Source: a bacterium
GTDB taxonomy: Bacteria; Bacteroidota; Ignavibacteria; Kapaibacteriales; UBA2268
Direction: 5' to 3'
NCBI GenBank assembly: GCA_024711295.1
Contig: JANJTB010000033.1
Location: forward strand, 140,617 to 204,616
Length of the DNA stretch: 64,000 nucleotides
A program made the position numbers and the translations under genes. Below, in pieces: positions 10,572-57,979 of this stretch. Position 1 is the first letter of the stretch. Every line of letters starts with the position of its first letter. A model generated the notes under the pieces. It was not told the origin of the DNA and did not search any database. It was given only the letters and a program-made list of their open reading frames with translations.

Positions 10572-11666
10572 TTATTTTGTTTCAAATGTCCAAATAGTTT
10601 TACCGGATATATTTATATAATTCATCTGTTCATTTTTCCATACTTCGGCAATGCCATTACGAAATTCTTTCGCATAATCGTAGATAGGCTCAATGACAAT
10701 ATTACCATTATTGTTAATAAAGCCAAATTTTCCGTCAATATTAACCGGTGCAAGTCCCTGATTAAAATTACCCGCTGAATAATAGGATGCCTTGATGGCA
10801 AATTTTCCGGACTTATCAATGAAGCCCCACAAACCGCTTCCATCCATTACAGAAGCTAATCCTTCATTAAAATCATTTGCACTTTCATATATAAAATCTA
10901 TAATGATATTATTTTTATAATCAATATAGCCGTATTTTTTATTTTTCATCACTCTTGCCAAACCATTTTTAAACATACCGGCTAATTGGTATTGCGGTTC
11001 AATTGATATTTTCCCTTCTAGATTGATAAATCCCCATAAGCTGTCAACCATAACAGATGCATAAGATTCGGAAAATTTTTCAGCAAGTTCAAATTCCATA
11101 TCAGATAAGCTATAACCTGATTTATCTATGTGAAAATACTTCTTGTTTTGCATTACAATTGCTAAGCCCGAATCAAATGGACCTGTGTAATCAAAATAAT
11201 CATCTATTGCAATGATACCGTTAATGTCACAGTATGTGTAGTATTCTACATACATATCAATAATTTTGTTTTGAACAGTAATTGGAATTAAGCCGCTTCC
11301 ATGCCTACCAAGCTTTCTTGTACCGGAGTTAATAACAACCTTTCCGGATGTGTCTATCAATACATAGGAACTTTTGATTGGAATAAACCAAAAATACTCT
11401 TTCTTCTGTACACTGGCATAACCTTCACTAAAATATGCCTCTTCCGGAAATCTGATGGCTTTAAACTTGCGTTTATCATACTCAATTTCATAATATTCTA
11501 TAGTAGTGCTAAAATCAAAAGGTAATACAGGATTACCTTCTGTATCAATATAGCCAATGTTTTCTCCCTTATTAACAGGAATTAACTGAGAATACAAATT
11601 GCCATAACCAAAAAAAAATGCAAAATATATAATAAATAATTTCATTTTCAACCAGGTATTAATCAT
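10572..11666 (-). CDS. Secreted WG-repeat protein
   Basis: A 364-residue protein with an N-terminal signal peptide (…FIIYFAFFFGYGNLYSQ) followed by about seven WG/KWG repeats across the whole mature chain. Clear units are GLARVMKNKKYGYIDYKNNIIIDFIYESA and GLASVMDGSGLWGFIDKSGKFAI, shown here only in part. WG repeats form beta-rich modules of unknown function, common in Leptospira, Bacteroidota and other bacteria. The start at 11666 overlaps coaD by 8 bases; a second ATG at 11645 would give a shorter, more typical signal peptide and no overlap. The pairing with coaD is probably transcriptional rather than functional. Confidence 0.8.
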   Translation of the reverse strand: MINTWLKMKLFIIYFAFFFGYGNLYSQLIPVNKGENIGYIDTEGNPVLPFDFSTTIEYYEIEYDKRKFKAIRFPEEAYFSEGYASVQKKEYFWFIPIKSSYVLIDTSGKVVINSGTRKLGRHGSGLIPITVQNKIIDMYVEYYTYCDINGIIAIDDYFDYTGPFDSGLAIVMQNKKYFHIDKSGYSLSDMEFELAEKFSESYASVMVDSLWGFINLEGKISIEPQYQLAGMFKNGLARVMKNKKYGYIDYKNNIIIDFIYESANDFNEGLASVMDGSGLWGFIDKSGKFAIKASYYSAGNFNQGLAPVNIDGKFGFINNNGNIVIEPIYDYAKEFRNGIAEVWKNEQMNYINISGKTIWTFETK

Positions 11667-46122: not shown

Positions 46123-47469
46123 TTAATTAAACCATTTTGAAGGCAACTTGCCGTCAACAGTAATTTTCTTAGTAGCATTTACTTCCCAATCCAATAAATC
46201 ATCTTGGAAGAGGTAAAGTTTTTTATTTATTAAAGTACCATTTTCATTTCGTATATGGCAGTTTGCATAGCATGATTTGCCTGATTCTACTTGTGTACGT
46301 GCAGTCCATTTTTGTATATTATGAGGAGCCGCATAGTTATAAGTAGGATGAGCTTCAAATTTGGAATACTGTGCTACACCAAATTTCTCCCATGAATCAG
46401 GTGCTGAAAGTGTTCTTCTCAACACAGCAAACTTATATTTTGATCTGGTTTCAGGGATAGGATTCATACCAATCTTGAAATCCAAATGAGATGTAATTCT
46501 TGCACCCTCGCCACCTATATGGCAGCTTGCACAATTATTATAATTTTGAGAGTGACATGTATTACAACTAAAATCATTCATATGCATCGAATGGTATGTA
46601 TTGGAATTTCCAACATTAGAGTGGCAATCTGTACATTTAGGCATTTGAGCAACATTGTAACGAGTTTCGTATTGAACACCGTCACCATGGATTTCTTGTT
46701 TTGAGTGGCAACTCATACAATCAAATCCTTTAGTTTGATGAACATCCGGTTTTGTTCCTGATGCAACACCTAAGAAAGCGTGACCACCACGCGTTTTGTG
46801 GCAAGTAACACAAACATTAACCATGTCAGGTTTTTTGCTGAATGCATGCCCATTTATCAAGCCACCACCACCAGCATGAGGGCGATTAACGTGACATTCA
46901 CCGCAAGAAGCGTGACAAGTTGCGCAATTCTTTGCGTAACCTTCCTGCATACCGGCGGGTAGTAAATTGAATTCCTGCATACCAGCAAGCCCCATACGTT
47001 GGGTTACCTTTCTCATTTGACCATTTCCATTATGAATGTTGGTAGTTGCTCCTTTGGTTTCTTCGGCATGGCAAGTACCACATTTTTCCTGAGCCATAAT
47101 AGAAGGTTTAGCTATAAAATTACCACTGTGAGCTACTTTCTTGTCGTCAGTTTTGTCAACACCGTTATGACAAGCAACGCAACCAATTTCGTAATGCTTG
47201 GATTTTTTGAATTCAGCATAACCTGTACCACCTAAATAGACAGCATCATAGGGCTCTATGTGTGGTACTTCACCTCCACATCCGCCGCCACCCTGGTCAA
47301 CATAGGGGTCAGCTACTTTTTTAAGATGTTCGTAATTGCTGTGACATCCTTCACATGAAGCTACACTTTGAGATGGATCGGGAGTAGTATTATTATCATC
47401 GCCACAACCCATCAAAAAAGTCAGCATTCCAAATACTCCTGCGAGTAATATGAGATGGACACTTTTCAT
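46123..47469 (-). CDS. Multiheme c-type cytochrome lipoprotein
   Basis: A 448-residue lipoprotein (LMGC, Cys about 22, then DDNNTTPD). It contains ten CxxCH heme-binding motifs: CEGCH, CVACH, CGTCH, CATCH, CGECH, CVTCH, CMSCH, CTDCH, CNTCH and CASCH. An eleventh, CYANCH near the C-terminus, has one extra residue (CX3CH). Many extra histidines could serve as distal heme ligands. Surface or periplasmic decaheme-type proteins move electrons to or from extracellular acceptors, or act as sulfur-oxyanion or nitrogen-oxyanion reductases. No reductase catalytic residue is obvious. The linked rhodanese suggests sulfur chemistry, and both mature N-termini begin with a near-identical DDNNTTP linker. Confidence 0.88.
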   Translation of the reverse strand: MKSVHLILLAGVFGMLTFLMGCGDDNNTTPDPSQSVASCEGCHSNYEHLKKVADPYVDQGGGGCGGEVPHIEPYDAVYLGGTGYAEFKKSKHYEIGCVACHNGVDKTDDKKVAHSGNFIAKPSIMAQEKCGTCHAEETKGATTNIHNGNGQMRKVTQRMGLAGMQEFNLLPAGMQEGYAKNCATCHASCGECHVNRPHAGGGGLINGHAFSKKPDMVNVCVTCHKTRGGHAFLGVASGTKPDVHQTKGFDCMSCHSKQEIHGDGVQYETRYNVAQMPKCTDCHSNVGNSNTYHSMHMNDFSCNTCHSQNYNNCASCHIGGEGARITSHLDFKIGMNPIPETRSKYKFAVLRRTLSAPDSWEKFGVAQYSKFEAHPTYNYAAPHNIQKWTARTQVESGKSCYANCHIRNENGTLINKKLYLFQDDLLDWEVNATKKITVDGKLPSKWFN

Positions 47470-48746: not shown

Positions 48747-50632
48747 AAATACCTCAGGATATCGTAGATAAAATTAGAGAATCCTCTGATATTGTTGAGG
48801 TAATTGGTGAATTTGTTTCTCTGAAGAAAAGAGGTCGCAATTTTCTTGGTTTATGTCCTTTTCATAAAGAAAAAACCCCATCCTTCGTAGTATCACCTGA
48901 TAAAGGCATTTACAAGTGTTTTGGTTGCAGTAAGGCAGGAAATGTTTTTACTTTTGTTTCTGATTATCATGGATTAAATTTTTCTGAATCATTGAAGTTA
49001 CTGGCACATAAGTACAGTATAGATATACCTGAAACAAAATACAGCGATGCTCCCGAAAAGACAAGTATAACTGAAACTGCTTATGAAGCAATGAATGAAG
49101 CTGCATTATTTTTCCATAAATTATTAAGGAAAAAAGAAGGCGCTACTGCTTTGAGGTACTTTCACAAAAGAGGTTTTAAGGACGATATCATTGATAAATT
49201 TTTATTAGGTTATTCACCGGAGGAGTGGGATACTTTAACAAAAAAACTAATCAAACATGGATTTGAAGAAAATCTTTTGGTTGATATAGGCATTTCGATA
49301 AGAAGTGAAAAAGGTCATATTTATGACAGATTCAGGTCGAGAGCAATTTTCACTGTTAGGGATTTTATGGGCAGAGTTGTTGGATTTGGGGCAAGATTGA
49401 TGATAGATGATAAAAGTCAACCCAAATATATTAATTCGCCCCAGTCAATAGTTTATGACAAGAGTAAACTATTATTTGGAATATTTGAAGCCAAAAATTC
49501 TATTCGTGATAAAAAATTTGCAATTATGGTAGAAGGTTATGCAGATTATCTGACTCTTTTCAGATCAGGAATCGAAAATGTTGTTGCATCATCTGGCACT
49601 TCTCTGACAAATGAACAGTTAAGCCTTTTGAAACGATATACAAAGAGTATTTGTTTTGCTTATGATGGTGATGAAGCCGGCAGAAATGCAGCTGTCAGAG
49701 GTGCAGAAATGGCTCTTGCTGCAGGTTTTGATACAAGCATTACAAGATTACCCGCTAATACGGACCCTGACTCTGTAATCTCTGAGCTTGGCTTTGTTCA
49801 GATGGAGTATTTTATCAGAGATGCCGAGACTTATATCTCTTATCGTCATAAAAATGCTTTAGAAGCTGATTTGTTAAAAACACCTGCCCAACTGACTGAT
49901 TTTGTAAGATCAACAATCAAAACCATCGTTTCAATACCTGATTCATTGCAACATGATTTTTATATTCGCCAGCTTTCTCAATTACTAAATCTTACTGAAA
50001 ATCAATTAAGACAAGTATATAAATTTAGAGCACAAAGTATAAATAATATAATACAGTCTGAGAGTCAGGGTAAGCAAACTCAGGAGCCGGCTGATTATTT
50101 ACATAGTGATGAAGCTCAAACAGTCATAAACTATGAAGATATAATTATCAATAGAGAAAGTTTATATAATGAAGAAAAGTTGATATTAAATTTTGCCTTA
50201 CAGGGTATTGATGAATTCACAGATTTAATTGAGAAATATGATGTTGGTCCTGAGACATTTATAACAAGTTCAGCAAAAGCTATTTTCTCGATAATTCAGT
50301 CTCACTCCGACAAGGAAGACATCATGAACGAAATCTTCAATGATTTATCAATCAGCAGTAGTGTCAAAAGTTTTGTTGCCGAGCTGGCTATAATGAAAGA
50401 ATCACCCAGCGAAGCATGGTATAAGAAGTTTCAGGCAGACGAGTTAAAAATTGACTACGAAACTGCAATCATAGACTCAAGAAACAAGTTAAAGTCAAAA
50501 GTCATCGAAAACCAGTTGAAAGAAATTCAAAATATGCTCAAATCAGACCATGACAATGAAACTCTTCTAAAAAGGTTTATCGAGCTAAGGTCGAAAAAGC
50601 GTGAAGTTGACGAGCTAATTTATAAAAACTAA
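48743..50632 (+). CDS. dnaG: DNA primase
   Basis: A 629-residue primase. It starts at GTG, overlapping the folK stop by 4 bases. Domains in order: CHC2 zinc finger (about 36-100; CPFHKEKTPSFVVSPDKGIYKCFGC, shown in part), RNA polymerase domain with the Toprim fold (about 250-345; MVEGYADYLTLFRSG, then FAYDGDEAGRNAAVRGAE with the catalytic DGD), and a helical C-terminal region (about 430-629) for helicase contact. Length is normal. The C-terminal part is more diverged than the core. Its operon with folB and folK looks like simple genome packing. Confidence 0.96.
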   Translation: MKIPQDIVDKIRESSDIVEVIGEFVSLKKRGRNFLGLCPFHKEKTPSFVVSPDKGIYKCFGCSKAGNVFTFVSDYHGLNFSESLKLLAHKYSIDIPETKYSDAPEKTSITETAYEAMNEAALFFHKLLRKKEGATALRYFHKRGFKDDIIDKFLLGYSPEEWDTLTKKLIKHGFEENLLVDIGISIRSEKGHIYDRFRSRAIFTVRDFMGRVVGFGARLMIDDKSQPKYINSPQSIVYDKSKLLFGIFEAKNSIRDKKFAIMVEGYADYLTLFRSGIENVVASSGTSLTNEQLSLLKRYTKSICFAYDGDEAGRNAAVRGAEMALAAGFDTSITRLPANTDPDSVISELGFVQMEYFIRDAETYISYRHKNALEADLLKTPAQLTDFVRSTIKTIVSIPDSLQHDFYIRQLSQLLNLTENQLRQVYKFRAQSINNIIQSESQGKQTQEPADYLHSDEAQTVINYEDIIINRESLYNEEKLILNFALQGIDEFTDLIEKYDVGPETFITSSAKAIFSIIQSHSDKEDIMNEIFNDLSISSSVKSFVAELAIMKESPSEAWYKKFQADELKIDYETAIIDSRNKLKSKVIENQLKEIQNMLKSDHDNETLLKRFIELRSKKREVDELIYKN

Positions 50633-52917
50633 TATTTTTGGATAATTCCTTTGTCGATAATATAAATACAAATTTGTTTCGCAGCTTCTATATTTTTGTA
50701 TTTGAACTTTGTTATTAAATTATTTAACAGCATTTCGACATCTCTTTTTAACCTGTCATCAAAAGTGTTAAAAGATTGAGTACCAAATTCTAAAATAGCT
50801 CTTCTGAAATTTTCGTTCTCTAAATATGGAGCCATTGAGTTTTCTTTAAGATTCCGAGTGTATCTTTCGAATAAATTTTGGAACAGTGTTGTTTCATTTA
50901 ATTTTTTATTTTCAAGTCTGATTTCTTGAGTTAGTGTCTGCGATACATACTCTGCCTGCGTATTTCTCCTGAACTCCTTTCTCGAATTTTCACTAATATC
51001 GGTGCCTAAAAAACGTGTTTCAATATTATTCAAAAAATCTTCAGTTATTTCAATGTTATCACCTGTATCAGGATTATTAACAGATTCACCAAAATCAAAA
51101 TTGATTGAATATAAATAGTTACTGATATCGTTGGATATATGTTGTTCGTTATAGTAATAAACTGACTCTTTAATCTCCTGAACAACATCATAATCATACA
51201 AATCAACTAATTTATCAATAAAATCCTGAGGGATATCTGCATGTAATTCTTCCTTTCTGTTAGTAAAGTACTCCCTTACTTCATCCATCGTAATATATTT
51301 ATCAGGAGCATATAATCTTGAATAAAATTCGTTAAAAACGTTAAGTGATTTGCGCCCGGAAATTCCCTTCAATCCCTCATTTTCGGATCCAGCTATGATT
51401 TCCATTCGAATATTTTTGTCAAATCTTCTTAAGTCATCCTCAGAAATCCAATCCGGTAATGTTCCTATATATACCTCCATTTTTAATAATAACATATTTT
51501 TATCAATGTACTTTGCATATTTCTCAGGTTTATTGATCCACTTCTTTAGTGGTGGCGATTCATTATCCAGCCTTGAAGCTATAATAATTTTGGCAAAATT
51601 CTGCAATACTCCAGGCAAGAATGAATCAATTATTTTATTGCTGAATTTACTTTTGTATATTGCTACTTCAGTATTATAATCGAGTACATAAGGTATTTTA
51701 ACATTGATAATCCTGTCTTGGAACGATTTAACCTGTTCATAATGAATTTTATCTTCAGGATTGACTAATCCAATAAAGAGAGTATTTACATATTCTTCGG
51801 TTAAATCAACTTTGTGAACACCATCGCTGATAATTCCATGAAAAGCTTTCAATCTTTCTATATTGGCTTCTTTGATATCCATAAGAGCAAGAATGCCATT
51901 ATTGGTTTTGGCCATATACGAAAAGGTGTATTTAATTTCATCATTCCTAAGCAGGTCATTTATCATAAACTGTAAGGCAGGTTTAGATAATGGGTCATCA
52001 ATAGTCGGGTCACCGGGATTAAACACACTTATCCCCTCACCCAACTGACGATTGAAATAATTACTTCGAGCACTAATCATAGCAAATACTTCGAGCGGGT
52101 CTCCAAGTCTGTCGAGAAGCGTTTTCTGTATAGAACTACATATTGAACATGGCAAATCTTTCAAAACCCACTCGTATTGCTTATCATTAAATAGTTTGTA
52201 CTTGAAATCTTCATTCGTGATAAGTTCATCCAAAAATTGTTTCCGGTAATATTTCGGAATTTGTAAAATTGGATGATCGTGATTTGGACAAGAAAATTCA
52301 AGATATTTTTCCGGAAAATTCAGAATTCTGGGATGAGCAGAATTCTTACTTTCTTTAAACTCTTCTTCAGCTTTACGAAACTTCTGCATTTCTTTTGATT
52401 GAAATCCGCCTAATTTATCAATATCGAGTCGCCAATATGTTTTGTAGGTTATTCCTTCCGGAAGTTTAGTATAATCCTCAAATTTTTGCATAAGATTGTT
52501 TAAAAATGTACTTTTACCACTTCCTGGAGGACCTTCGAAAATATAAATTCTGTTATTTTGAGTCCCTTTTCTAAAATCTTTAGTCATTTTCATAAATCTA
52601 TTTGCGAATAACCTGTCAGCAAAGAATGGTTCATCACATTCCTCTTGAAATAGTCTGGAAGTTTTGTACTTAACAAATCCAATATGATGCTCATCCTTTT
52701 TGAAACTGTCATCACCCTCGGGCACAAAATAGTGAACCATATCGTGATATAGTTGAAAAATATCTCTGAAAACAAGTTCAGGTTTGGTTGCAGCAAGATA
52801 TAAAAAGTCATTAAAAGTGATAGGTGTTCTTTTTTCCTTATCACGAATATTGTTACTCAGATTTATCAATAATTCAAGTCTTTTAGCTTTTGATTGCATT
52901 TCAAGAAAAGTTTCCAT
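50629..52917 (-). CDS. PrkA-like AAA+ ATPase/kinase, second copy
   Basis: A 762-residue protein related to PrkA (YeaG). The AAA+ domain has Walker A GPPGSGKSTFLNNL at about 128-141 and, later, a Walker B-like NGILALMDIKEANIERL that corresponds to the GI.EF.E.FKA segment of classical PrkA. A cysteine/histidine cluster (SCPNHDHP and CSICSS, about 220-260) may bind zinc and is absent from the first PrkA here. The C-terminal half has the PrkA-type extended helical region with a NPDTGDNIEITEDFL segment. It is the last gene of a four-gene operon, 15 bases after spoVR, and its stop overlaps the convergent dnaG stop by 4 bases. It differs from the other PrkA copy in length and motifs, so it is a diverged paralogue. 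Confidence 0.82.
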   Translation of the reverse strand: METFLEMQSKAKRLELLINLSNNIRDKEKRTPITFNDFLYLAATKPELVFRDIFQLYHDMVHYFVPEGDDSFKKDEHHIGFVKYKTSRLFQEECDEPFFADRLFANRFMKMTKDFRKGTQNNRIYIFEGPPGSGKSTFLNNLMQKFEDYTKLPEGITYKTYWRLDIDKLGGFQSKEMQKFRKAEEEFKESKNSAHPRILNFPEKYLEFSCPNHDHPILQIPKYYRKQFLDELITNEDFKYKLFNDKQYEWVLKDLPCSICSSIQKTLLDRLGDPLEVFAMISARSNYFNRQLGEGISVFNPGDPTIDDPLSKPALQFMINDLLRNDEIKYTFSYMAKTNNGILALMDIKEANIERLKAFHGIISDGVHKVDLTEEYVNTLFIGLVNPEDKIHYEQVKSFQDRIINVKIPYVLDYNTEVAIYKSKFSNKIIDSFLPGVLQNFAKIIIASRLDNESPPLKKWINKPEKYAKYIDKNMLLLKMEVYIGTLPDWISEDDLRRFDKNIRMEIIAGSENEGLKGISGRKSLNVFNEFYSRLYAPDKYITMDEVREYFTNRKEELHADIPQDFIDKLVDLYDYDVVQEIKESVYYYNEQHISNDISNYLYSINFDFGESVNNPDTGDNIEITEDFLNNIETRFLGTDISENSRKEFRRNTQAEYVSQTLTQEIRLENKKLNETTLFQNLFERYTRNLKENSMAPYLENENFRRAILEFGTQSFNTFDDRLKRDVEMLLNNLITKFKYKNIEAAKQICIYIIDKGIIQKY

Positions 52918-52932
52918 TTCATCACTTCCTGC

Positions 52933-54552
52933 TTATAAATATCTTTTCGACATTTTCTTGTTCGACATAATATACAATATTGGTTTGTACTCATAACTAA
53001 CTGAATCATCATTGGATTTTCTTTTCATTATATCAGTAGTTTCAAGAATGACCTGTCCCTGAGCGGTATCACCGAACCACAAGAACTCAATACCCATCAA
53101 GGTATCAGCAATATATGGTTTATAAAGTTGTTTGCCTTCGAAGCTGTGCTTAAGGTACAGAGTTTTTGTGTCAGTATGTTTCAGTTCAATGTTAATAATT
53201 GGGGGATGATACATATTATCAATCAACATTTGTTTGTAATCTTCAGCTTTGCGACTTTTAACATAATATTCTACAGTCCCTCTCCTTTCATTGAGTCTCT
53301 GCCCTACAACAAAAAGCCTGTGCAAATCAACGAAGTCCTGATCAACAAATGTATTTATCAAAGTAAAGTCAGAAAAATGCTTTCTTATGTTAAATATTGC
53401 CTCTCTACCCTTACCTGTCATTTTGTTGAATTTTTCCCTCAATTCTGAGTCACGTAATTTCTGAAATTCATAAGAAATTTTTCCGGAATCAGCAAGATTT
53501 TCTATATATTGAATTAGACGAAGCCCAATCGCATAGGGATTGTAACCAACTCTTGATATGGATGTAACTTTAGAATTTATTACGGAATATTCTGATTCAT
53601 GCCCTTTGATCCTGTGATCACTTCGAAATAATTCATCATGCCAATAGCTTGCCCAACCTTCATTGATAGTCTTTGTCCTGATTTGTGGAGAAAAGTATAT
53701 CGAAGTATCTCTGACAATGTTAATTATTGACTTCATCCATAAATTTTCTTCCTTTTTCAGAAAAGGAGAATTATCACGAATAAATTCCAAAACATCTATT
53801 GATGCTTCCTCGAAAGATTCAATATATTTTTTGAACCTGGACTCAAATTCGGGATATTTGACTTTTACTTCAGAAAAGAATATTTGCTCAGCAACCAACT
53901 CATTATTTTCGATTATCGAATTATATCGTTCAATCTCTGAATAAATAGCACTTATATTGGCATTAGCAGAATTTGGTAAAAAATCGTCCAAATAAAATGA
54001 AAGCTTAGAACTCGGCTCCATGCCTACTGGGAAACTTCTTTTTGACATTAAAGTGAAATACCCAACCAAATTGTCTATAGAGCGGCTAAATTCAATAATA
54101 TAATCTACCCACCTCCCATATTCACTTCTAAGTTTATTAACATGTCTTTTATCAGCAAGTGCCTGACCTACAAAATCGTCATTCCAAGTATGCTCAAAGA
54201 ATATATTATTCTGGAAAAAATCTATATGCCCTATGACATGGTAAAATATCATTATATTCAACCAGTCGGGATTGTTGTCATTATAATAAGATATTGCAGG
54301 TCGTGAATTAATTACTGTTTCGTAGGGGTTATGAGGATATAACTTGTATTGCCCTTTTCCTTTCAAAACATCAACATCGTTTACCCAATAATCATACAAT
54401 GTTGGTATCATACCTTTGGGTGACAATTCAATCATATCCTGATTAGTAACAATGTACTCAAGTGACTCATCATCAAACTTCAAGCCCGCTTCTCTTGCCC
54501 TAACCTTGCAATCTTCCATTATCTTTTTTGTATGTTGGTCTATCAGTTTCAT
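52933..54552 (-). CDS. spoVR: SpoVR family protein
   Basis: A 539-residue protein from the ATG at 54552, which leaves a 7-base gap after the DUF444 stop; an earlier ATG at 54597 would overlap by 38 bases. It matches SpoVR/YcgB: YPHNPYETVINSRPAISYYNDNNPDWLNIMIFYHVIGH (in part), the HxxHxF-like FFEHTWNDDF, TINEGWASYWHDELFRS and NPYAIGLRLIQYIE, all typical conserved blocks. SpoVR proteins are needed for spore cortex formation in Bacillus, though most bacteria carrying them do not sporulate. In proteobacteria the gene travels with yeaG-yeaH, as here. Confidence 0.92.
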   Translation of the reverse strand: MKLIDQHTKKIMEDCKVRAREAGLKFDDESLEYIVTNQDMIELSPKGMIPTLYDYWVNDVDVLKGKGQYKLYPHNPYETVINSRPAISYYNDNNPDWLNIMIFYHVIGHIDFFQNNIFFEHTWNDDFVGQALADKRHVNKLRSEYGRWVDYIIEFSRSIDNLVGYFTLMSKRSFPVGMEPSSKLSFYLDDFLPNSANANISAIYSEIERYNSIIENNELVAEQIFFSEVKVKYPEFESRFKKYIESFEEASIDVLEFIRDNSPFLKKEENLWMKSIINIVRDTSIYFSPQIRTKTINEGWASYWHDELFRSDHRIKGHESEYSVINSKVTSISRVGYNPYAIGLRLIQYIENLADSGKISYEFQKLRDSELREKFNKMTGKGREAIFNIRKHFSDFTLINTFVDQDFVDLHRLFVVGQRLNERRGTVEYYVKSRKAEDYKQMLIDNMYHPPIINIELKHTDTKTLYLKHSFEGKQLYKPYIADTLMGIEFLWFGDTAQGQVILETTDIMKRKSNDDSVSYEYKPILYIMSNKKMSKRYL

Positions 54553-54559
54553 TACAAAC

Positions 54560-55882
54560 TCATGCTTTTTGTTCGACAAGTTTTTTGATACCATCAATCA
54601 ATCTTGACTCATCAGCTTCACTTGATGCAAAAGCATCGAGTCTGATCAAGTCAGATTTATTTTTCAGGATACCTGATTCTTCGATATATTTTTCGACTGT
54701 TGTGTTAGATGTTGTCCAATTATTTCTTGCAACTGTAATTCCCATTCTGTTGACATGAACAAGAATTTTATTAATCTCCTCAAGTGCTTTCTTACCATCT
54801 GTATCCCAATCGTCACCATCTGTACCATAAAAAACATAAATATTATTATCTATGTACAACTGCTCTTCTTCGATTATCTTGTTTACCAATTCAAATGCAG
54901 GATAAACGTTAGTTCCACCAGCTACAGATGAATTATGATATGTGTAGAAATCTTTTACTTCCTTTGCAGTTTGGTCGTGCAGAATAAACCTGGTGCTTAC
55001 ATTTTCGTTGTATTGATACATAAGCCAACTATAAATCAACAAGTGTTGAGATGTAACAGCTTCAGTAGGTTTTCCTTGCATCGAACCAGAATAGTCCCTG
55101 ATAAAAAAAACAACTGCCTGAGTTTCAAAATCTTTCTCAGATGAGAGAATTCGATATATCTCATCCTGAGGATTAAATATCATGTTCTCAGGAAGAATTT
55201 CACCATTTTTATCTAAATTCTCAAGCAATATATTTGTTTGGACAATTTTTCTCAAAGTAGCTTTTTTGTCCAGGATTTGACCAGTCCTTCTGTTTCTGTC
55301 AGTAAGGTCATACTTATACTTTGTAAATGATCTTTTTTTACCTTTTACTTTTAGATTAGGAAGATTAAATTTTTGAGTCAGTATTCTACCTAAATCGAAT
55401 GCATCAGCAACAACATCATGACCTTCACCTCTTCCGCCCTGCCCGGCTCCCTGACCTTCACCTTCACCATCGGTTTGATCAGCAGGTGACTCACCTATCA
55501 CTTCACCTTCCTCGCCATCACCCGTTCCACCAGTACTTTGCTCTTCGTCAGTTATGGAACTGTCATGATAAAACTTAGGCTCGGTTGTAGTAGGCACTAC
55601 AACGACCTTCTGCTCTTTCTTAGTTGGTTTAACAATTTTCCCAAGCCTGATTCTGCGTGGGAAACCATCTTTTTCTCGTTGGTCATCACGCCTAATCAAA
55701 TCTTCAATTGTCTGTATCATCAGGGTATAACTGAGCTTAGGCTTGTAACTGAAACCAATGGCATCCATAAAACTATCGCCAAAATGAATTTCATTCCTAT
55801 CATTTTGGTTGGAAACTACAAAATGCTCCCCTGCCTGCTCAATATCAAGATACTCTTTACTGTATTTAGCATCATTTTCCAT
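54560..55882 (-). CDS. yeaH: DUF444/YeaH (YhbH) family protein with VWA-like domain
   Basis: A 440-residue protein. The N-terminal part (about 20-105) has the IHFGDSFMDAIGFSYKPKLSYTLMIQTIEDL-like start of DUF444, then a long acidic, Gly- and Gln-rich linker (about 115-165). From about 190 the VWA-like domain has VVFFIRDYSGSMQGKPTEA, with DxSGS as in MIDAS motifs, and GGTNVYPAFELVNKIIEEEQ. DUF444 proteins are partners of the PrkA kinase/ATPase in stationary-phase and nitrogen-stress responses of E. coli. Gene position, 21 bases after prkA and just before spoVR, agrees with that. Confidence 0.93.
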   Translation of the reverse strand: MENDAKYSKEYLDIEQAGEHFVVSNQNDRNEIHFGDSFMDAIGFSYKPKLSYTLMIQTIEDLIRRDDQREKDGFPRRIRLGKIVKPTKKEQKVVVVPTTTEPKFYHDSSITDEEQSTGGTGDGEEGEVIGESPADQTDGEGEGQGAGQGGRGEGHDVVADAFDLGRILTQKFNLPNLKVKGKKRSFTKYKYDLTDRNRRTGQILDKKATLRKIVQTNILLENLDKNGEILPENMIFNPQDEIYRILSSEKDFETQAVVFFIRDYSGSMQGKPTEAVTSQHLLIYSWLMYQYNENVSTRFILHDQTAKEVKDFYTYHNSSVAGGTNVYPAFELVNKIIEEEQLYIDNNIYVFYGTDGDDWDTDGKKALEEINKILVHVNRMGITVARNNWTTSNTTVEKYIEESGILKNKSDLIRLDAFASSEADESRLIDGIKKLVEQKA

Positions 55883-55903
55883 AAATAAAAACCTTGTGAT
55901 TTA

Positions 55904-57979
55904 TTAGGAATTGTCTTCCTGAGTACAGAAATACTCAATAGTTTTTTCTGCACTCGTTTTATCATAACCAAGTTTTTCAATCATAGTTTTAATCATTCTA
56001 TTGTAAAGTTTTTGATTATCTTCGTTTGTTCTGTTAGATAAAGCACCAATCAAGCTTCCTGCACCTGCAATATCTGATTTTAGTCTTACATCTGTTACAG
56101 CTTTGACTAGATCATTATTGTCCATAAAGTCGTAATTAGCATCTTGCATCATTTTTTGACCATAAATTTTGGCAATAGTAGTTCTGTAACTTTGCTTTTG
56201 CTCTTTAGACTTTAGTCCCAGCCTTGATTCAACACTATCAATGAAACTTTCATCAATTTTTATAGAAATCAGTTTACCTGATTGCGGGTCTTTGTAAGTC
56301 CACAATTTGTTAGGACCTAAATTTTTGGCATCACTTCCAATTATCATATTCACGTAATTCATTACATCTTTTTGAATAGCACCTGGCTCATCCATGTAAG
56401 CATTGAATATTGAGGTCATAACATTTTCTCTGTGTAATGATTTGGCAATTTTCAAGTCATTCATGTATTTAGCTCTGTCGTTTGGGTCTTGCACATAATC
56501 AAGTATAACACTCTCGATTGACTGAAATATATCACCCGCGTACATACATTTACCTTCCTGTGTTTCGGAGCGTTCCAATAAAATTTGAATTGCTCTTCCA
56601 AGGTTTCTATGGCCCAAACCTTTTTGTCCAAACCTTTTGGTTATATCTGTTTCTCTATTTAACTGGTCTATAACCTCAGCTAAAGTCTTTACACTTTTCT
56701 CACCCGCTACTTCTCCAGCAGCAAGTTTCATCATTTCAACAGGATTCAATTTATCATTTTGAGGCATTCTGCTGAGTATAAATGCAACCGATAATGCGTA
56801 ATTCAAGTTTGGATCTATATGTAATTTTTCGCCTGAAAATGTTGTTTTTTCCTGACTACCAATCGCCAGTCTTGTCAATTCCTGCTGTAATTTATAATTT
56901 GTATTATGAGCCATATATGTCAAACGGCATCTATCCACAATTGGAGCCTGCTCTTTTTCTTCCAAAAATCTTTGAAATTCTGCGTTGTTACTTGTAGCTA
57001 TTATCAATGTATCGAGAGGCCATTTAAATCCCTCTATTTCGATAGTTCTGTTTTGGATTACTCCCAAATAAACTTGTACAAGATCACGTTTGTTTTTGAA
57101 TATTTCGTCTGCAAAATGAATACCTCCACCTGCGACTCTTGCAAGTGCACCTCTTCTTAGATCGAACCGGTAAGGATTATTGGTATCCGAAATATGCAGT
57201 AAACGGGTTATTGATTCATCACCAAGCAAGTCTACTGCTGATGAAGTAATTTTGTCCTTAGCAGCATATTTTCCGGTTAGAGTTCCTCTTGTTTCACTTA
57301 TCGAAATTGGAACAATTTCAATAAATTCAAGCATTTTAGATAAATCTTCATCGCAATAATCTCTAATCTGATTAAATATGTAATCTGAGCAGGCACCTAA
57401 GGGACGATAATTTTTGAAATATGAAATAATTTGCTCGTCACCTGCACCCATCTGTTCCAAAAATTCGATGTTTTTGTCACGGTCTTCGAATAAATTCATC
57501 GAAAGAACCATTGGGTCTTCGAAGGTTTGAGATTCAATACTTGAAATTTTCCCGTAACCGCCTAACTTGTCAAGATTTTTCAATTTGAATGTAAATCTTT
57601 GATTCTGTGGTTGTGATATAAAATCTCGGTAACATTTGTTCAGGTAGTCCACAAAATAGGTTTTTCCGTTTCCAGGTTCACCAATAAGAACAAAAGCCAT
57701 TTCAGAGGAAGAGCCACCTTCGGCGGCATCTTTGACAAACGACACAAAACTATTGATTTCATCATACATACCTATGATATGCTTTCCTTTTTGCCTAAAT
57801 AGCTGAAAATCATAAGTAGGCCTTCCGTTAACTGTAATTTTTCTGATTCCGTCTGGATAATCCAAAATCATTCTTGTAACTGATTTAAACACATTTTCGA
57901 ATCTGCGATTGCCCTCTATAACCGATTTTACATGATATTCGAGGCTGCGATTTGCTTTCTGACCAATAATACTTTCCAT
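55904..57979 (-). CDS. prkA: PrkA (YeaG-type) serine kinase/AAA+ protein
   Basis: A 691-residue protein. AAA+ module: Walker A GEPGNGKTYFVDYL at about 99-112, sensor/Walker B GGGIHFADEIFKNKRDLVQVYL, ATSNNAEFQRFLEEKEQAPIVDRC with the arginine-finger-type region. The PrkA C-terminal domain follows (about 440-691), ending NRMIKTMIEKLGYDKTSAEKTIEYFC, similar to the YeaG tail. PrkA has been described both as a serine kinase and, in B. subtilis, as an ATP-dependent protease. It leads the operon with DUF444, SpoVR and a second PrkA-like gene. An 8-bp inverted repeat with 3-base spacer lies about 85-100 bases before its ATG and may regulate it. Confidence 0.92.
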   Translation of the reverse strand: MESIIGQKANRSLEYHVKSVIEGNRRFENVFKSVTRMILDYPDGIRKITVNGRPTYDFQLFRQKGKHIIGMYDEINSFVSFVKDAAEGGSSSEMAFVLIGEPGNGKTYFVDYLNKCYRDFISQPQNQRFTFKLKNLDKLGGYGKISSIESQTFEDPMVLSMNLFEDRDKNIEFLEQMGAGDEQIISYFKNYRPLGACSDYIFNQIRDYCDEDLSKMLEFIEIVPISISETRGTLTGKYAAKDKITSSAVDLLGDESITRLLHISDTNNPYRFDLRRGALARVAGGGIHFADEIFKNKRDLVQVYLGVIQNRTIEIEGFKWPLDTLIIATSNNAEFQRFLEEKEQAPIVDRCRLTYMAHNTNYKLQQELTRLAIGSQEKTTFSGEKLHIDPNLNYALSVAFILSRMPQNDKLNPVEMMKLAAGEVAGEKSVKTLAEVIDQLNRETDITKRFGQKGLGHRNLGRAIQILLERSETQEGKCMYAGDIFQSIESVILDYVQDPNDRAKYMNDLKIAKSLHRENVMTSIFNAYMDEPGAIQKDVMNYVNMIIGSDAKNLGPNKLWTYKDPQSGKLISIKIDESFIDSVESRLGLKSKEQKQSYRTTIAKIYGQKMMQDANYDFMDNNDLVKAVTDVRLKSDIAGAGSLIGALSNRTNEDNQKLYNRMIKTMIEKLGYDKTSAEKTIEYFCTQEDNS

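Follow-up and report, generated by a model that had tools for sequence, protein, structure and literature searches.

PrkA gene clusters and the four-gene operon of the window

The widespread classical PrkA trio, as found in Escherichia coli (yeaGH and ycgB) and Thermomicrobium roseum, consists of one PrkA-family AAA+ ATPase, one DUF444 protein with a VWA domain and one SpoVR-family protein. The biochemical activity of PrkA is not agreed upon, and kinase, protease and non-enzymatic roles are argued in the available portions of three papers (PMC13001217, PMC6299236, PMC4664914). For haloarchaea, an excerpt of a report from 2011 describes two adjacent PrkA kinases which are always accompanied by one DUF444 and one SpoVR gene (PMC3102087), so that a two-PrkA arrangement is already a known kind of cluster. 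The window analysed here, a stretch of 64,000 nucleotides from a bacterium of the Ignavibacteria (contig JANJTB010000033.1), contains a cluster with the same gene content, two PrkA genes, one DUF444 gene and one SpoVR gene. The cluster is a run of four genes on the minus strand, from 57979 down to 50629, encoding in this order the ATPase PrkA-A, the DUF444/VWA protein, the SpoVR-family protein and the second ATPase, PrkA-B. In the related genomes examined these genes are retained or absent as a unit, and we tentatively propose that they encode a PrkA machine with a motor that is split into two obligate, non-interchangeable subunits.

PrkA-A (55904..57979, 691 amino acids) was assigned from its open reading frame (ORF), Pfam matches and alignment, the DUF444/YeaH-type VWA protein (54560..55882, 440 amino acids) from its ORF, Pfam and NCBIfam NF003712, and the SpoVR-family protein (52933..54552, 539 amino acids counted from the ATG at 54552) and PrkA-B (50629..52917, 762 amino acids) from their ORFs and Pfam, all on the minus strand. 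With the SpoVR start at ATG 54552 the intergenic gaps measure 21, 7 and 15 bases, a spacing which suggests that the four genes form one transcript. The longest SpoVR ORF has a TTG start at 54597, which is also open and would overlap the DUF444 gene; a Met is present at the position of ATG 54552 in 17/17 aligned SpoVRs, in an alignment for which a script chose as row start the ATG closest to the expected start. ORFs, Pfam matches and spacings thus confirm the description given in a sequence-only reading of this DNA, i.e., a PrkA-DUF444-SpoVR trio with a second PrkA in a tight operon. Two proteins of the own genome lie clearly above the cut-off for the PrkA AAA domain, and both are encoded in this operon.

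Although similar in gene content, the haloarchaeal and bacterial clusters do not show the same organization. The haloarchaeal PrkA genes are adjacent, whereas in the window and in 11 genomes of families f12, f17 and f21 the PrkA genes flank DUF444 and SpoVR. The DUF444 protein of the window scores above the cut-off of NF003712, which is reached in 0/14 control genomes, the match of Haloferax volcanii remaining below it; this subfamily result appears to point away from orthology of PrkA-A and PrkA-B with the haloarchaeal PrkAs. Plasmid searches with PrkA-A, PrkA-B and SpoVR gave no haloarchaeal sequence among the matches listed (for SpoVR, 60 of 70 records). With the classical trio the window has all three protein families in common, and the order PrkA-DUF444-SpoVR is found in T. 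roseum, in the genomes G060, G068 and G257 and in the two-PrkA operon alike. Unlike the two-PrkA operon, the classical trio includes one PrkA, and its DUF444 proteins belong to different subfamilies. In the open-access literature no report was found of the Bacteroidota-type form with motors at both ends or of its set-wise retention, nor of the Walker B split described below or of complete phage sets treated as one system.

In the proposed machine PrkA-A would be the conserved core motor with a complete Walker B motif, and PrkA-B a variable, fastest-evolving partner that keeps the nucleotide-binding and arginine-finger residues and has a shortened Walker B acid. The two would most likely form one hetero-oligomer, or two rings that are obliged to cooperate. 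The DUF444 protein, with its predicted intact metal site, may dock on the AAA+ assembly as a bridge, SpoVR would be a dedicated effector or client, and the machine may act in starvation or stress, by analogy with E. coli yeaGH. We favour a mixed PrkA-A/PrkA-B assembly because of the asymmetry between the two sequences and because of published results on PrkA: the Bacillus protein, according to the available text of PMC13001217, gives oligomeric species upon addition of ATP and has negligible kinase and protease activity in vitro. A natural two-motor version, kept in nearly every assessable genome, would offer a direct genetic and biochemical handle on PrkA, as two distinct motors allow mixing, Walker mutants and subunit swaps.

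Retention of the gene set in related genomes

The distribution of the genes was followed in samples of 100 relatives (the own genome included), 395 genomes of the phylum and 391 genomes of the class. These samples overlap and the genomes are related to one another, so that the co-occurrence counts are not independent events. PrkA-B is present in 17 of the 100 relatives, together with PrkA-A in 16, DUF444 in 16 and SpoVR in all 17; in the genome without PrkA-A and DUF444 (G034) the matches sit on a contig of 3,966 bases. A DUF444 match in G053 (E 5.8e-4, with stops) was treated as chance, and the PrkA-A match in G030 includes one TAA, with an intact frame spanning residues 12-689 following it. 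Among the 391 class genomes the profiles PF06798 (PrkA) and PF04293 (SpoVR) match the identical 27 genomes and no other, namely 24 that have a PrkA pair and a single SpoVR, plus G034, G060 and G068. The latter two (loci L137 and L138), which belong to one family of the same order, carry the classical single-PrkA trio and not the two-PrkA set. A demonstrably lone PrkA-A or PrkA-B was not seen in any of these 391 genomes. In the phylum sample PF06798 is matched in 9 of the 395 genomes, seven of which have two copies, the remainder being G257, whose only copy belongs to a classical trio, and G172, with a weak match below the cut-off.

The order PrkA-A, DUF444, SpoVR, PrkA-B is complete in 6/17 relatives (G000, G001, G002, G008 with wider gaps, G017 and G020), in locus L029 and in all 11 set-bearing genomes of families f12, f17 and f21 (G132, G161, G244 and eight more). 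In 4/17 relatives (G007, G026, G039, G046) PrkA-A lies apart, with DUF444, SpoVR and PrkA-B together, and in 5/17, all from genus g9 (G010, G030, G041, G047, G052), the set is dispersed with all four genes kept. In G047, where the genes are on a single contig, PrkA-A is found at 123,820, DUF444 at 523,258, SpoVR at 660,641 and PrkA-B at 2,041,660; PrkA-A and DUF444 of G052 are ∼5 kb apart and PrkA-B and DUF444 of G030 ∼16 kb apart, in both cases opposed, and the other g9 genes are located on separate contigs. For G015 and G034 (2/17) contig ends leave the gene order undecidable. Because all four genes are kept even when unlinked, one shared function would account for their retention better than operon inertia. 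The four genes thus recur together in related genomes, one of the two points on which the sequence-only reading had staked its case. Its further suggestion of a paired two-PrkA system in this lineage stands in so far as the pair is kept across the lineage, but the pair is not confined to it, given the haloarchaeal clusters in the excerpt of PMC3102087.

The same distribution bears on a second reading, nearly as probable, in which the labour is divided between separate homomeric rings of PrkA-A and PrkA-B, with different clients and with DUF444 and SpoVR in common. That the genes can be dispersed agrees with such a division. Separate losses would be expected, however, and 24 of the 25 genomes with non-classical PrkA among the 391 hold both ATPases, the remaining one being the contig-cut G034; moreover, a single DUF444 and a single SpoVR would have to serve both PrkAs.

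Sequence divergence of the two ATPases and their partners

Both ATPases score above the cut-off of 25 bits for the C-terminal PrkA domain PF06798 (PrkA-A 112.9, PrkA-B 126.3) and for the PrkA AAA domain PF08298 (41.6 and 36.5, with the same cut-off), the latter profile being matched in part only. With profiles built from relatives, the solved PrkA structure 9xip is matched at E 1e-35 by PrkA-B and at E 3.5e-9 by PrkA-A; 9xip was absent from the results of a single-sequence phmmer search with PrkA-A at E 1. PrkA-A and PrkA-B can be aligned to one another along almost the entire length of both (hhalign probability 92.9, E 3.6e-7), and in a tree PrkA-A, PrkA-B and classical PrkA form three clades with 100% bootstrap each; the tree is unrooted and carries a long-branch warning, which includes phage PrkA-B rows. 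By sequence comparison both ATPases are confirmed as full-length PrkA homologues in clades distinct from classical PrkA, and the relationship of the second ATPase to PrkA, which the sequence-only reading could not do without, is significant by Pfam as well as by the 9xip profile. Neither of them is the YeaG equivalog, since for NF011999 (cut-off 576) PrkA-A reaches 30.2 bits and PrkA-B gives no match. The match of PrkA-A alone to 8hr7, which we take to be the RADAR RdrA ATPase, is not significant (E 0.11), and 8hr7 does not appear among the profile-search matches at E 0.01. A PADLOC scan for defence systems gave weak partial matches only, the best of which (E 0.00028) was to the P-loop of PrkA-B.

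Motifs were counted in an alignment of 19 PrkA-A, 21 PrkA-B and 11 classical PrkA sequences. In the window PrkA-A shows the Walker A motif GEPGNGKT, the Walker B motif HFADE, the sensor-1 motif ATSNN and the motifs VDRC and GLGHR, and PrkA-B the Walker A motif GPPGSGKS and the Walker B motif ALMD; all motifs named in the sequence-only reading (GEPGNGKT, GGGIHFADEI, GPPGSGKS, ILALMDIKEAN and CPNH...CSIC) are present in the translations. The Walker A lysine (K116 of YeaG) is kept in 19/19 PrkA-A, 21/21 PrkA-B and 11/11 classical sequences, and the residues which we take to be the sensor-1 asparagine, the Asp-Arg of the arginine-finger motif and the sensor-2 arginine are invariant in PrkA-A and in PrkA-B. 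Each ATPase could therefore act alone, as homomeric rings with different clients would have to, and the differences between the two in the pore-loop and Cys-cluster regions also fit such rings.

The Walker B motifs differ markedly. PrkA-A has HF[AS]DE in 19/19 sequences, with Asp-Glu present, and classical PrkA has the glutamate in 11/11, preceded by Ile or Val in nine, whereas PrkA-B shows LM-D or near variants with an aspartate at the glutamate position in 21/21, in a region where a one-residue alignment gap makes the equivalence of the PrkA-B aspartate and the glutamate uncertain. Residues Cys210, Cys257 and Cys260 are invariant in 20 aligned PrkA-B sequences and the fourth ligand varies. 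The zinc-like cluster had been described as an extra of the second copy, which does not hold: both cysteine halves also occur in 5/11 classical PrkAs, including that of T. roseum, and in 9xip, and the cluster is absent from PrkA-A and from YeaG. The bacterial PrkA-B sequences shown contain a long insert ahead of the cysteine cluster, which has no counterpart in PrkA-A or classical PrkA.

The asymmetry extends to the rate of divergence. In 25 complete sets (300 pairs) the mean identities are 69% for PrkA-A, 58% for SpoVR, 55% for DUF444 and 45% for PrkA-B; of the four proteins, PrkA-A shows the highest conservation in 300/300 pairs and PrkA-B the lowest in 293/300. This fast evolution, the aspartate in Walker B and the insert would suit a PrkA-B that serves chiefly in regulation or loading and itself turns over little ATP or none, leaving PrkA-A as the sole motor. 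We consider this unlikely, as the Walker A, sensor and arginine-finger residues of PrkA-B are invariant, which would be unusual for a dead subunit, and as the argument from Walker B is affected by the alignment gap.

Far less probable is a kinase pair, in which one of the two PrkAs would phosphorylate its partner or regulate it. In its favour, PrkA-family proteins carry the annotation serine kinase, weak kinase activity of YeaG is described in the available part of PMC6299236, and in an excerpt of PMC4664914 a YeaG K426A variant failed to complement and K426 was proposed as catalytic. The K426 position, however, is occupied by arginine in 19/19 PrkA-A and never by lysine in the 21 PrkA-B sequences, and as lysine is found there in only 6/11 classical PrkAs, K426 does not define the family; this lack of conservation makes the kinase model weak, and for another PrkA the kinase activity measured in vitro was negligible (PMC13001217, available text). 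Least probable of all is that the two are redundant duplicates kept in one operon by chance, which has shared ancestry on its side and nothing more, against the deep divergence into three fully supported clades, the co-retention of PrkA-A and PrkA-B when unlinked and the presence of both in phages.

The DUF444 protein matches PF04285 above the cut-off (112.3 bits) and NF003712 with 583.6 bits at a cut-off of 421. This cut-off is passed by 5/5 DUF444 proteins of the two-PrkA type (window, L133, L135, L140, L141) and by 0/4 classical ones (E. coli, T. roseum, phiYS40, LR756511). The VWA partner is thus a subfamily of its own which tracks the two-PrkA type, and we count this in favour of the two-subunit machine. 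Residues D263xS265xS267, T324 and D355, which we take to be the VWA metal site, are invariant in 18 aligned sequences. VWA partners dock on MoxR ATPases, and these pairs serve as the model for DUF444 docking. The likeness lies in the combination of an AAA+ ATPase and a VWA partner, with the metal-site residues of the window protein invariant; PrkA-A differs in scoring 21.2 bits to AAA_5 (PF07728), below the cut-off of 22, and PrkA-B is not listed for this profile. To our knowledge, neither the C-terminal PF06798 domain nor SpoVR is part of MoxR systems. The SpoVR protein matches PF04293 above the cut-off with 204.8 bits. Its residues H105, H109 and E298 are invariant in 17 aligned sequences, with HxxGH spacing, and could be a metal site; a zincin-like arrangement of H105xxGH109 and E298 is an idea only. 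For the predicted SpoVR structure (mean pLDDT 72.4) a Foldseek search against the PDB gave no matches at E 0.001 or better, and the best VIA-align hit (Z 4.8) was to part of RavZ, from which no conclusion is drawn.

Several points weigh against a machine with two obligate subunits. The same data are compatible with two separate homomeric rings, which are almost as likely. The pairwise identities of PrkA-A and PrkA-B correlate with a coefficient of 0.87, which is the lowest value of the six protein pairs, all of them high. Co-translation is not needed, given the dispersed genes of g9 and the four genomes with PrkA-A apart, and the set of G015 may be broken, its DUF444 match containing one in-frame TAG and running into the contig end. 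The predicted structure of PrkA-A (mean pLDDT 52.8, pTM 0.37) is too poor to use. A strictly joint function is also at odds with the available part of PMC2375023, where yeaH, and not yeaG, is cited for resistance of Salmonella to antimicrobial peptides. Sensitivity of ycgB-less strains to such peptides is given in the same part of that source as unpublished data.

Phage-borne sets and neighbouring features

Complete four-gene sets in the bacterial order are present on two IMG/VR phage contigs, L140 (8998-17986) and L141 (8983-16373), the only viral contigs on which the two-PrkA form was seen. The L140 set adjoins DNA primase and exonuclease genes. That of L141 adjoins genes for RecT-like, exonuclease, ERCC4-type nuclease and primase/helicase proteins, and a ClpP-like protease gene (11056-11622) separates its PrkA-A and DUF444 genes. 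On L192, SpoVR and PrkA-B lie at the contig end. A search of the viral_contigs set with PrkA-B alone gave no relative.

In IMG/VR, which may include some bacterial contigs, the surroundings of the best 80 of 108 SpoVR relatives (L191-L270) were compared, with redundancy remaining among the 80. PrkA, DUF444 and SpoVR occur together in 70/80 of these loci, 50 in the order PrkA-DUF444-SpoVR, 19 in the order DUF444-SpoVR-PrkA and one in the two-PrkA form, the latter being again the L140 contig. Six of the ten incomplete loci start at a contig edge (L192, L213, L220, L225, L237, L248) and four are without clear explanation (L196, L199, L208, L229). Phage-type neighbours are present in L201, L224 and L249; L193 and L230 were checked and are uninformative. 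The 50,697 phage records of INPHARED contain relatives of YeaG in 16 and of the window SpoVR in four.

Other phages carry the one-PrkA form. The huge phages LR756511.1 and LR745206.1 (∼600 kb; L031 and L032) have classical PrkA, DUF444 and SpoVR side by side, and the Thermus phages phiYS40 and Lalka8 have three-gene loci (L144 2188-8313 and L145 2176-6391). These four sets comprise the same three families as the window, adjacent or nearly so, but with one classical PrkA. In Lalka8 the genes for a vWA protein, SpoVR and PrkA are placed between those for a minor head protein and TerL. The phiYS40 locus consists of DUF444, a gene annotated SpoVR, a 616-aa unknown gene (YS40_058) and PrkA, and its record gives the names SpoVR and serine kinase to genes close to one another; as Pfam yields nothing for YS40_058 at E 0.01, this gene is not established as a second PrkA. 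The record of Enterobacter phage LAU1 (L146 1-3308) begins with yeaG (97.7% identical to that of E. coli) and yeaH; this may be host DNA from the border of a prophage and not phage cargo.

In PHROGs the PrkA, SpoVR and main DUF444 families are classified as of unknown function, and a second DUF444 family bears the label sporulation protein. Jumbo phage PrkA, SpoVR and VWA protein are reported as separate genes in the available part of PMC8504454, and in an excerpt of PMC8940887 a viral spoVR is read as a sporulation gene. The number of complete viral sets suggests a direct benefit in infection, and viral spoVR genes read in this way (PMC8940887, excerpt) may be parts of a PrkA machine. A wider and doubtful extension of the two-subunit proposal is that an obligate two-motor PrkA had at least two origins, in this bacterial lineage and in haloarchaea, and that phages of the two-motor lineage took the entire four-gene machine and others the one-motor form. 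PrkA-VWA-SpoVR would then be a general phage-exploited remodeller of host or virion proteins, rather than a sporulation or kinase system.

Upstream of the operon, a candidate -7 motif, TAAATTTG, lies 47 bases ahead of the PrkA-A start in the window. For what we take to be the Bacteroidota-type -7 consensus, any match was found in only 6/13 PrkA-A upstream regions, at differing positions, and a promoter scan (46 sites against 35.2 expected, standard deviation 5.2) was uninformative. At the other end of the operon the last 4 bases of PrkA-B overlap the end of the convergent dnaG gene. A third ORF of the own genome (G000:C2:77672-77851, 845 aa) scores 25.1 bits against AAA_PrkA, at a cut-off of 25, only with its neighbours, and perhaps represents another AAA+ family. 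Near the operon, at 46123-47469 of the window, a long ORF contains many CxxCH motifs and is multihaem-like.

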